The translations under genes and the position numbers were made by a program. Below the pieces are notes generated by a model. The model did not search any database, was not told where the DNA came from, and was given only the letters and a program-made list of their open reading frames with translations. DNA of 64,000 nt from Collimonas antrihumi (lineage in GTDB: Bacteria; Pseudomonadota; Gammaproteobacteria; Burkholderiales; Burkholderiaceae_D), in assembly GCF_018304965.1 (NCBI RefSeq), contig NZ_JAGQED010000003.1, positions 62,001 to 126,000 on the forward strand. Reading direction: 5' to 3'. The first letter of the stretch is position 1. Each line of letters opens with the position of its first letter. Shown in pieces: positions 9,440-11,852 of this stretch.

Positions 9440-11146
9440 CTAGGCCGCCGCTGCGTTGTCGACGATGCCCTGATTGGCCGCGTTGCCGGCAATTTCAATT
9501 TGCCGGTTTACTGCGCTCAAGATAGCTTTGAACGATGCCGTCAAGGTATTGGCGTCGATGCCGACACCGAAACCGGTGGGAGCGTCGTTGAGGCGCAATT
9601 CGATATAGCTGGCGGCCTGTGCGTCGGCGCCGGCGCTGATGGCGTGCTCATGGAAATCCATCAATTTGATATCCAGTCCAAGTGCATTGACGAAGGCGTC
9701 GATCGGGCCGTTGCCATGGCCGCTCGAGGTGTGGACCTGGCCATCGCGGACGATGTCGATTTCGATCTTGACCGGCTGTGCCTGGCTGGAATCTTCGCTC
9801 ATGCGGTGGCCGCGATACACGTAAGGGGTTTGCTTGTCCAGGTACTCTTGCTTGAAGATGGTGTAGATGTCGCTGGCGGCAATTTCCTTGCCGGTTGCAT
9901 CTGCCGCTTTCTGGATCGCACGGCTGAATTCGATTTGCAGGCGGCGTGGCATGGCCAGGCCGTATTCCTGTTCCAGCAGATAGGCCATGCCGCCTTTGCC
10001 GGACTGGCTGTTGACGCGGATCACGGCGTCGTAGCTGCGGCCGAGGTCGGCCGGGTCGATCGGCAAGTAGGGGATTTCCCAGATAGCATCAGCCTTCTGC
10101 GCGGCGAAGCCTTTCTTGATCGCATCCTGATGCGAGCCGGAGAAGGCGGTAAAGACCAGGTCGCCGACATACGGATGACGCGGATGGACCGGGATCTGGT
10201 TGCAGTCTTCGACGCATTGGCGTACTTCGTCGATGTCGGAAAAATCGAGCCCAGGATTGACGCCCTGGGTGTACAAATTCAAAGCCAGCGTCACCAGGTC
10301 GACGTTGCCGGTGCGTTCGCCGTTGCCGAACAAGCAGCCTTCAACCCGGTCGGCGCCAGCCATCACGGCCAGTTCGGCGGCGGCAACGCCGGTGCCGCGG
10401 TCATTGTGTGGATGGACGCTGATGATGGTGGCATCGCGGCGCGCCAGATTGCGGTGCATCCATTCGATCTGGTCGGCAAATACATTCGGTGTGGCGCACT
10501 CGACCGTGCTCGGCAAATTGAGAATGACTTTGCGCGTCGGGCTGGCTTGCCAGGCTTCAACCACGGCATCGCAGATTTCTTTAGAAAAATCCAGCTCGGC
10601 GGTGCTGAAAGTTTCCGGTGAATATTCATAACGCCATTGTGTTTCCGGGCGGGCGTCGGTCAATTCCTTGATCAGGCGCGTGCCGGAGACAGCGATTTCC
10701 ATGACTTCTTCGCGGCTTTTGTTGAACACGATGCGGCGCCAGGCCGGAGAGATCGGGTTATACAGGTGGACGATGGCTTGCTTGGCGTTCTTGAGCGAAT
10801 CGACGGTGCGGCGGATCAGGTCATCGCGCGATTGGGTCAGGACGATGATGGTGACGTCGTCCGGGATGTGGTTTTCTTCAATCAGCTTGCGGACAAAATC
10901 GAAATCGGTTTGCGAACCGGAAGGGAAGCCGACTTCAATTTCCTTGAGGCCTATCTTCACCAGCAACTTGAAGAAGCGCAGCTTGCGATCGGCGTCCATC
11001 GGTTCGATCAGGGCCTGGTTGCCGTCGCGCAGATCGGTGCTCATCCAGATCGGCGGAGCGCTGATGACTTGATTGGGCCAGGTGCGATCACTCAATGGAA
11101 TCGGCGGGAACGGGCGATACTTGACAGCGGGATTGTGCAACATCAT
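9440..11146 (-). CDS. leuA: 2-isopropylmalate synthase
   Basis: LeuA condenses acetyl-CoA with 2-ketoisovalerate, the first committed step of leucine synthesis. The protein is 568 aa, the long form of the enzyme. The catalytic barrel shows '[20 protein letters not shown]', '[18 protein letters not shown]' and '[28 protein letters not shown]', and the C-terminal allosteric leucine-binding domain starts near residue 440 ('[27 protein letters not shown]'). The frame is open further up, but the ATG at 11146 has AGAGAGG 6 nt before it and starts the conserved '[14 protein letters not shown]'. Two leucine-rich leader ORFs precede it, pointing to attenuation control. Confidence 0.95.
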
Positions 11147-11237
11147 GTTAGGCCTCTCTTGGAGCTGGTGAAGTGTGCTGATGAAATGGAACGGAATTCG
11201 GGAGTAGCAAGAAGGCTGCCTGACTGCCACTCGAAAA

Positions 11238-11375
11238 TTAACGCGAGGCCAGGCAACCGATCGGTAGCAGTAGCTGGAGCGATAGCAGTAGCAGCGGTAA
11301 CAAAGCAAGCAAACGCATGGCGACGAGCGTGTTGCTGTAGCGGAAGAAGGTAAAGCGAAGTGGCTTGGAGTACAT
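11238..11375 (-). CDS. Second leucine-rich leader peptide upstream of leuA (45 aa)
   Basis: On the minus strand an ATG at 11375 opens 45 codons ending at TAA (11238-11240), 91 nt before the leuA start. The translation contains 15 leucines, clustered as '[11 protein letters not shown]' and 'LQLLLPIG', four of them encoded by the rare codon CTA, plus TTA and TTG. The N-terminal third ('[16 protein letters not shown]') is not leucine-rich. No strong ribosome-binding site is visible. Composition and place argue for a regulatory leader rather than a functional protein, but it could also pass for a small membrane peptide. Confidence 0.6.
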
Positions 11376-11390
11376 GTGATCTTGCTCTTT

Positions 11391-11416
11391 AAAATCGAGA
11401 TTCATTAACGAATCTC
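11391..11416 (-). terminator. Attenuator-like hairpin between the two leucine leaders
   Basis: Read on the minus strand, GAGATTC-(6 nt)-GAATCTC forms a 7-bp stem followed by GATTTT, the form of a weak intrinsic terminator. It lies 82 nt after the stop of the first leader ORF and 15 nt before the second. It would be the natural place for leucine-dependent termination. No folding energy was computed. Confidence 0.5.
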
Positions 11417-11475
11417 AGTTTTACTGCCGTTGATTTCTTGTCTGGCGCAGTTGGTGCGATTGCTGCCAGTGATGT

Positions 11476-11491
11476 CCCCGTCAGAACGGGG
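11476..11491 (-). other. GC-rich hairpin just after the first leader ORF
   Basis: CCCCGT-4 nt-ACGGGG is a perfect 6-bp stem starting 6 nt after the first leader's stop codon. It is a candidate pause or anti-terminator element whose formation a stalled ribosome could change. It lacks a U-tract, so it is unlikely to terminate by itself. Confidence 0.45.
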
Positions 11492-11497
11492 TCGAGA

Positions 11498-11605
11498 TCA
11501 TAGTGCGCGTAGTAGCGATAGCGCTAGTAGCGGCACTAGCAGCATTGCAGGCAGGGCGCCAGCAACGTGTAGTAGAGAGCAGGATTGGGTGCGTGTGGAA
11601 AACAT
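11498..11605 (-). CDS. leuA leader peptide 1 (35 aa, CTA-codon rich)
   Basis: An ATG at 11605 opens 35 codons to a TGA at 11498-11500. The last 15 residues read 'MLLVPLLALSLLRAL', and nine of the leucine codons in the ORF are CTA, normally a rare codon in genes of this kind. An internal in-frame ATG at 11545 would give just that 15-residue peptide. Runs of a rare leucine codon in a short ORF ahead of leuA are the hallmark of ribosome-mediated transcription attenuation. No ribosome-binding site is clear at either ATG; with the predicted promoter, the longer form could be nearly leaderless. Confidence 0.75.
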   Translation of the reverse strand: MFSTRTQSCSLLHVAGALPAMLLVPLLALSLLRAL

Positions 11606-11611
11606 GCACTT

Positions 11612-11641
11612 AATGTATGAGATAAAGTCGGGCCTTGTCAA
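11612..11641 (-). promoter_or_regulatory. Predicted leuA leader promoter
   Basis: On the minus strand a perfect -35 box TTGACA (11636-11641) is followed 18 nt later by TACATT (11612-11617, four of six matches to TATAAT). Transcription would start near 11605, at or just ahead of leader ORF 1. Spacing is one longer than ideal, so the exact -10 is uncertain. Confidence 0.55.
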
Positions 11642-11714: not shown

Positions 11715-11852
11715 TTAGCGGCCGAACAAGCCAATCAGGCCGATAACTATCAGATACAGCGCGATAATGTAGTTCAGGAGGCGTGGAATCGCCAGGATAA
11801 GCACCCCCGCAATCAACGAGACGATGGGGGTCAGGTGCAGGCCGGAAATCAT
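11715..11852 (-). CDS. DUF3096-type micro membrane protein (45 aa)
   Basis: This short gene encodes 45 residues: 'MISGLHLTPIVSLIAGVLIL' then 'AIPRLLNYIIALYLIVIG LIGLFGR'. The pattern 'LTPI..LIAG.LIL..PRLLNYI.A.YLI..GL.GL' is the DUF3096 family, tiny two-helix inner-membrane proteins of unknown function. AGGAG ends 6 nt before the ATG at 11852, which supports real translation. It is monocistronic, on the same strand as leuA but upstream of the leuA promoter. Confidence 0.85.
   Translation of the reverse strand: MISGLHLTPIVSLIAGVLILAIPRLLNYIIALYLIVIGLIGLFGR

Follow-up and report, generated by a model that had tools for sequence, protein, structure and literature searches.

On the minus strand of the window (the whole stretch of 64,000 nucleotides of Collimonas antrihumi DNA that was analysed), two short leucine-rich open reading frames (ORFs) lie in series 5' of leuA. 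Read toward that gene, the features are a promoter, leader 1, a hairpin, a second hairpin followed by GATTTT, leader 2, a pseudoknot, a C-rich linker and leuA itself (Table 1); the pseudoknot (11258-11202) overlaps the end of leader 2. Both ORFs had been reported in the preliminary description, whose coordinates and codon counts proved right: nine CTA codons in leader 1, and 15 leucines, four of them CTA, in leader 2. Because CTA makes up only 2.2% of the leucine codons in the 22 long ORFs of the window (10,571 codons), its share in leader 1, 9 of 11 leucine codons, is far from chance; the share in leader 2 is 4 of 15. Just upstream of the leuA promoter, a 45-residue hydrophobic ORF, MISGLHLTPIVSLIAGVLILAIPRLLNYIIALYLIVIGLIGLFGR (11715-11852, minus strand), resembles a small membrane protein.

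Table 1. Features of the leuA upstream region in the window, in the order of the minus-strand transcript.
Feature	Position	Strand	Basis
Sigma-70 promoter, TTGACA (11641-11636), 18 nt, TACATT (11617-11612)	11612..11641	-	Promoter scan; like geometry in 77 of 80 relatives
Leader 1 ORF, MFSTRTQSCSLLHVAGALPAMLLVPLLALSLLRAL, 35 codons, 11 Leu, 9 CTA; predicted leaderless	11498..11605	-	ORF list and relatives
Hairpin CCCCGTTCTGACGGGG, immediately 3' of leader 1	11476..11491	-	Bases invariant in 7 aligned genus members (one with two extra G)
Candidate leader 1 terminator, GAGATTCGTTAATGAATCTC then GATTTT	11391..11416	-	Genus alignment; weak
Leader 2 ORF, 45 codons, 15 Leu, 4 CTA	11238..11375	-	ORF list and relatives
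Last CTA codon of the leader 2 Leu run, starting 9 nt before stem A	11265..11267	-	Leu at -9 in 71 of 78 loci, CTA at -8 in the other 7
Pseudoknot stem A, 5' strand, GGTTGCCTGGC	11248..11258	-	Pairing search, 78-row alignment, covariation
Pseudoknot stem B, 5' strand, (GA)GTGGC	11226..11232	-	Pairing search and covariation
Pseudoknot stem A, 3' strand, GTCAGGCAGCC	11214..11224	-	Pairing search and covariation
Pseudoknot stem B, 3' strand, GCTAC(TC)	11202..11208	-	Pairing search and covariation
C-rich, G-poor linker with the leuA ribosome-binding site	11147..11201	-	Sequence, composition
leuA, 2-isopropylmalate synthase, TIGR00970 type (start 11146, end 9440)	9440..11146	-	794.5 bits, cut-off 697.4

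For comparison within the family, 145 Oxalobacteraceae genomes were searched, of which 105 had a leuA of the TIGR00970 type and 102 had enough upstream DNA, G025, G087 and L078 being left out as cut by contig ends. One member of the window's genus (G083), with a genome of 1.7 Mb at 99% completeness against 4.7-5.7 Mb in the other members searched, lacks a leuA of this type at E <= 1e-150 and has apparently undergone strong genome reduction.

A search that considered base pairing only, with a strict rule demanding two crossing helices, detected an H-type pseudoknot at 78 of the 102 family loci. Over these 78 loci, stem A measures 11-13 bp, loop 1 9-19 nt, stem B 5-7 bp, loop 2 0-2 nt and loop 3 3-7 nt. 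The rule was passed by 6 of 2,040 dinucleotide shuffles of the family's upstream regions and by 29 of 1,110 overlapping slices of the window, including the slice that is the element, a rate that makes single cases outside the aligned set weaker. In the 78-row alignment 97.4% of the cells are paired, and double-sided changes occupy 51 cells, as compared with 8.9 in shuffles. Counted by pair, both sides have changed in 9 of 16, against a shuffled mean of 3.4 and a maximum of 5 when the partners were slid; these changes fall on 8 of the 11 pairs of stem A and on 1 of the 5 pairs of stem B, which is nearly invariant. A covariance model built from the 78 loci (R1) matches the window at 11288-11198 with 76.5 bits, this locus being among those used to build it, and no Rfam family matches the element or the leaders. 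A loop 3 of 3-7 nt leaves little length to span a stem A of 11 bp, so that the two stems may be mutually exclusive rather than coexisting. The pseudoknot is not universal in Oxalobacteraceae: 24 of the 102 loci fail the strict rule, two of which (L090 and L094) keep a diverged form when judged by eye, leaving 22 without it by the rule.

The placement of leader 2 relative to this structure is closely constrained. Every one of the 78 strict loci has an ORF that reaches or enters stem A, in 71 of them in the frame of a leucine codon that starts 9 nt before the stem (the -9 frame), in six in another frame and, in L030, doubtfully. The leucine codon at -9 is CTA in 70 of those 71 loci, and the remaining seven, all from one genus (of the type of the named Herbaspirillum frisingense locus), have a CTA starting 8 nt before stem A, their leader 2 frame being shifted and six of the seven ORFs ending in CTA-TGA directly beside the stem. 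Within the last 21 codons, the -9 frame contains a stop at none of the loci, as against 10 and 47 loci for the other two frames; an ATG at least 15 codons upstream yet past the leader 1 stop is available in 68 loci, against 2 and 9; and the mean number of leucines per 15 codons is 4.94, against 0.73 and 1.26, with at least five leucines in the last 15 codons at 43 of the 78 loci. The stop codon itself ranges from -5 to +99 nt relative to the start of stem A, most commonly at +12 (30 loci) and +18 (29 loci). The leucine codon thus shifts by no more than 1 nt even where frame and stop differ, an observation that indicates the position of the ribosome as the selected feature.

These comparisons also bear on whether the peptide could be what is conserved. 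Leucine-rich ORFs are frequent in the family's upstream regions, and among them the end of leader 2 was conspicuous. A PIGCLA-like motif closes leader 2 at 59 of the 102 loci (a few of them in other frames or contexts), as would be expected if the DNA were kept for a functional or ribosome-arresting peptide ending in LPIGCLASR or similar. The DNA encoding the motif is, at the same time, one strand of a helix, and the residues over stem A (GC, GY, GD, AC) change along with their RNA partners; moreover, the stop wanders as described and the Herbaspirillum-type ORFs end before the motif. On these three grounds we rejected the arrest peptide, which we consider highly improbable, and leader 2 appears to keep a leucine codon and an RNA structure rather than a peptide end.

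Leader 2 also departs from what a leucine attenuator would be expected to contain. Neither inspection of the sequence nor a terminator scan revealed a hairpin with a U-tract between the pseudoknot and leuA in the window; a few relatives have four or five T in loop 3 of the pseudoknot. The preliminary description had suggested that a double leader could give a two-stage leucine response, and this is partly supported: both leaders are conserved, but leader 2, followed by a covarying pseudoknot in place of a U-tract terminator, does not look like a classical attenuator and is no second copy of leader 1.

A pseudoknot with neither a terminator nor a ribosome-binding-site hairpin linked to it might instead be the binding site of a protein or a small molecule, with leader 2 incidental or weakly involved. 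The bases CCGATC before stem A and GCG in loop 1, well kept although they lie outside the stems, would suit such a site, and for the actinobacterial LEU element, discussed below, the available text of PMC1262725 argues for a protein partly since Streptomyces leader mutations misfit classical attenuation. An element that only bound a ligand would, however, have no reason to keep a leucine codon at -9 or -8 at every one of the 78 loci, placed within 1 nt despite the moved frame and stop, nor for a -9 frame that is free of stops when the other frames are not. We therefore regard a pure binding site as unlikely, if still deserving of consideration, and the fixed spacing between leucine codon and stem A favours the ribosome over a bound protein.

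How such a pseudoknot might act on leuA was sought in the sequence that follows it. The linker has a C-over-G skew of 0.40, and the skew exceeds 0.3 at 46 of the 78 loci, as compared with 0.13 and 0.08 for fixed stretches of pseudoknot-free loci; this C-rich, G-poor composition, from which alone a Rho step is drawn, fits a Rho site and proves nothing. Sequestration of the leuA ribosome-binding site was rejected, its unpaired probability being 0.48 with the element and 0.52 without it (first 40 of the 78 loci, pseudoknot-free folding model), and a folding test found no excess folding from A' to leuA. A frameshift fusion of leader 2 to leuA was likewise rejected: in the window the leuA frame does run through leader 2 without a stop, but in many relatives the open stretch of that frame upstream of leuA is short or absent.

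Leader 1 was surveyed at 80 Oxalobacteraceae pseudoknot loci, namely the 78 strict ones together with the two added by eye. At each locus the leucine-rich ORFs were ranked by the score of a promoter within 30 nt and the top one was kept, a procedure biased toward ORFs near promoters and not toward any particular spacing. Leader 1 was present at 77 of the 80 loci (75 of the 78 strict ones) as a leucine-rich ORF with at least two CTA codons starting 5-12 nt past a -10 hexamer. Of these 77 loci, 58 have 6 nt and 12 have 7 nt between the -10 hexamer and the ATG (70 together), and the -35 hexamer is a perfect TTGACA in 74. In the window, too, the ATG stands 6 nt past TACATT, which places the predicted transcription start at about its A. 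Transcription usually begins about 7 nt past the -10 box, and an ATG at that place should belong to a leaderless ORF; leader 1 is thus probably leaderless. The refuting condition named in the preliminary description, that relatives lack or break leader 2, was checked, and the tandem survives it in most of the family. Its remark that neither ORF has a strong ribosome-binding site holds for leader 2, where a weak AAAGAG stands 9 nt before the ATG (AGGAAAG in many relatives; an alternative in-frame ATG at 11405 would yield 55 residues), and loses its force for leader 1, which would need no such site if leaderless. Two further Oxalobacteraceae loci, L058 and L073, keep a leader 1-like ORF and have lost the pseudoknot, possibly as natural deletions of a second stage; in L058 an ATG after AGGAAAG, resembling the start of leader 2, persists before a different sequence.

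The E. coli leuL type represents the classical ribosome-mediated attenuators of leu and ilv operons. Leader 1 is like it in having a run of rare leucine codons and, in its own genus, a hairpin with a short U-run downstream; the differences are that leader 1 is predicted to be leaderless, that leader 2 is without a terminator and that Rfam holds no matching leader. The candidate terminator is a weak one. Across seven aligned members of the genus its arms vary while the hairpin is kept, followed by ATTTT in six and ATGTT in one, and the folding energy is -4.2 to -6.8 kcal/mol in six genus relatives. In the window itself, our survey of terminator hairpins preferred another site, and a consensus terminator scan listed the 11391-11416 stem on the plus strand only, not on the minus strand. 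In five of the seven genus members GATCTC at the leader 1 stop could pair with GAGATT of the terminator's 5' arm, a candidate antiterminator that the other two have lost. Across the family, a hairpin of at most -6 kcal/mol with at least four U in the next eight bases was found at 33 of 75 loci, several inside leader 2 and chance-like, and for most other genera this survey gave no evident leader 1 terminator. Classical attenuation by leader 1 is thus backed, and not strongly, in the window's genus only.

To follow the element beyond the family, we ran R1 over 300 Burkholderiales genomes and obtained 23 matches in 22 genomes, all in loci that hold leuA, the start of which was recognised in 22; a leuA of the TIGR00970 type occurs in 100 of 300 Burkholderiales genomes drawn in the same way. 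At phylum level 3 of 299 genomes were matched, none of them new. Neither search gave the element any gene context other than leuA, under stricter filters that lose weak matches. Among 60 upstream regions fetched for leuA loci outside the family and without an R1 match, the element was found in one (L191); high fold scores in L168, L169 and L172 were set aside as terminator-like or due to chance.

A wider sample comprised 80 named leuA loci among those listed, with folds judged by eye. The element was recognised in Herbaspirillum, Herminiimonas, Noviherbaspirillum, Massilia, Duganella, Undibacterium, Cupriavidus, Pandoraea, Achromobacter (2 of 3), Castellaniella, Paralcaligenes, Paracandidimonas, Methylobacillus (2), Zoogloea (with a stem B of 4 bp) and Burkholderia (1 of 2), and not in the leuA loci of Pseudomonas, Halomonas, Comamonadaceae or cyanobacteria. 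By the same judgement, high fold scores in L225, L228, L231, L238, L239, L250, L260, L262 and L273 were not counted. No such fold was found at the Burkholderia cenocepacia leuA locus. The tandem occurs in Oxalobacteraceae, Methylobacillus, Zoogloea, the families f21 (L133), f25 and f35, Burkholderia sp. Ac-20365 and some metagenome-assembled genomes (MAGs; L222, L230, L253). Leader 1 was not found in Cupriavidus, Pandoraea or the Alcaligenaceae-type loci, apart from L253 (a MAG labelled Bordetella), when a promoter score of at least 8 of 12 was required, which misses weaker promoters. Outside the family, 18 of 42 loci have a leucine codon exactly at -9 and most of the rest have one between -6 and -12, within an examined range of -13 to -5. 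Two genomes carry two copies of leuA: in G346, where both are of this type, one copy follows the pseudoknot (L120) and the other (L192, C2:1030-1790) a different leucine-rich stretch, a natural side-by-side comparison; in G375 each copy (L136, L122) stands behind a pseudoknot element, the second being cut by a contig end.

On a LeuA tree the element is concentrated in one betaproteobacterial clade (57 of 64 rows), with 18 label changes overall. The tree holds 139 rows and 199 of 206 columns of the N-terminal part, and was used for clustering only, with rough automatic labels: L005, L106, L111, L113, L133, L135, L223, L261 and L275, among others, are labelled negative despite a fold seen otherwise, and a Leptolyngbya (L225) and a Halomonas (L239) carry doubtful positive labels.

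This distribution can be set against the possibility that leader 2 is a relic, leader 1 being the sole regulator and the pseudoknot an element for mRNA stability or ribosome loading. The weak ribosome-binding site of leader 2 in the window's genus would agree with this, as would the four Methylobacillus-type loci (L131, L135, L215 and L223) that have only one leucine left in the last 13 codons. In these four, however, the lone leucine codon still stands at -9, and the pseudoknot leader persists in Cupriavidus, Pandoraea and nearly all Alcaligenaceae-type loci, where leader 1 was not found. We consider the relic improbable.

The nearest known counterpart is the LEU element of Actinobacteria (Seliverstov et al. 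2005, PMC1262725), described in the available text as a leuA leader with a leucine run, a pseudoknot and a base stem between the leucine run and the leuA ribosome-binding site; an alternative hairpin on the same base stem is also described there, and the mechanism is left open, with a binding protein favoured. So far as that text goes, the likeness extends to the same leuA subfamily downstream, a short ORF with a leucine run, an H-type pseudoknot right after the leucine codons and no reported intrinsic terminator. We fetched four actinobacterial leuA loci from a plasmid collection, which also supplied the alphaproteobacterial ones, and found LEU-like anatomy in all four: Nonomuraea, Microbacterium (loop 2 of 3 nt), Nocardia and Tsukamurella, the last recognised on refolding after a poor first fold. 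A like anatomy was seen in two of three alphaproteobacterial loci (Shinella and Rhizobium, not Sphingomonas). Five of these six loci have their last leucine codon 6-8 nt before the stem; Microbacterium was misfolded in that analysis. Two Sphingomonas loci (L112, L232), which we did not count, show a strong stem A-like helix directly after CGA-CTT-ATC, which includes a leucine codon, with no clear stem B, and are perhaps a simpler cousin.

There are also differences. At the level of sequence, R1 finds none of the four actinobacterial loci (L105-L108) at E values up to 10 and gives no match to the alphaproteobacterial ones. For a base stem between the leucine run and the leuA Shine-Dalgarno sequence, 13 of the 78 loci fell in the best 5% of shuffles, with a median rank of 0.60, which is not above chance; the test is a weak one, as only a single actinobacterial control of three approached 5% (17 of 300, as compared with 44 and 140 for the other two). 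Moreover, leader 2 occupies the second place in a tandem and lacks the leaderless arrangement that the available part of PMC8079986 reports for the Streptomyces lividans leuA leader, which is also reported to have no typical Rho-independent terminator. The leader 2 element may work like the LEU element, and homology between the two is only possible.

For two short ORFs in series within one leader, each a proposed attenuator, a precedent is the Salmonella mgtCBR leader. According to the available text of PMC3641672, its tandem attenuators differ in the signal that they sense, ATP for one and proline for the other, and its authors call it a "singular example". Here, in contrast to that pair of signals (PMC3641672), both ORFs are leucine-rich and the second is tied to a pseudoknot. 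Among the open-access papers listed by our searches we found neither a published tandem or proteobacterial LEU-type pseudoknot nor a published pair of stacked sensors for one amino acid that use two different RNA devices.

Taken as a whole, the locus is best read as two leucine-sensing leaders in series on one transcript, a leaderless attenuator followed by a ribosome-gated pseudoknot without an intrinsic terminator, a reading to which we assign a probability of about 0.58. Comparative sequence supports both ORFs, the leaderless promoter geometry, the covariation of the pseudoknot and the fixed distance of the leucine codon. According to this model, translation of leader 1 would begin at the extreme 5' end of the mRNA. 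With a ribosome held on its CTA codons, the bases at the leader 1 stop would be available for pairing with the terminator's 5' arm, and a ribosome reaching that stop would let the terminator form. Transcripts that pass leader 1 would reach leader 2, whose last leucine codon ends 6 nt before stem A. In frameshift signals the ribosome abuts a downstream pseudoknot at 5-9 nt, and because the 6-nt gap is about that distance, a leader 2 ribosome awaiting leucyl-tRNA on the last leucine codon would sit flush against the intact pseudoknot. With leucine at hand, it would proceed, open stem A and in most loci stop in loop 1, covering stem A and part of stem B. Depending on whether it is formed or opened, the pseudoknot would then set the expression of leuA, with no intrinsic terminator involved; most likely it would do so by masking or exposing a stretch of the C-rich linker on which Rho loads. 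In this scheme we infer translation, stalling, terminator use, the part of Rho, the sign of the response and additivity. The ribosome-gated reading would be wrong if a result from Streptomyces cited in the available text of PMC1262725, namely that mutation of the leucine codons was without influence on regulation, also holds for this element.

As judged from sequence comparison, a two-stage response to leucine is plausible. Leader 1 stands as a conserved, probably leaderless leader peptide outside Actinobacteria, and leader 2 with its pseudoknot as a proteobacterial counterpart of the LEU element in the sense of a likeness in anatomy; the 78-row covarying alignment and the fixed leucine-codon distance make the LEU-type mode of action testable. 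Tentatively, and at somewhat less than even odds, leader 2 and its pseudoknot may be members of a broadly distributed, as yet unnamed class of pseudoknot attenuators gated by the ribosome in Beta- and Alphaproteobacteria and Actinobacteria that need no intrinsic terminator and that in many betaproteobacteria are stacked behind a leaderless classical attenuator, so that leucine would be read twice, by two physical mechanisms, on one mRNA. The tandem would thereby offer a natural case of two sensors for one amino acid in series.
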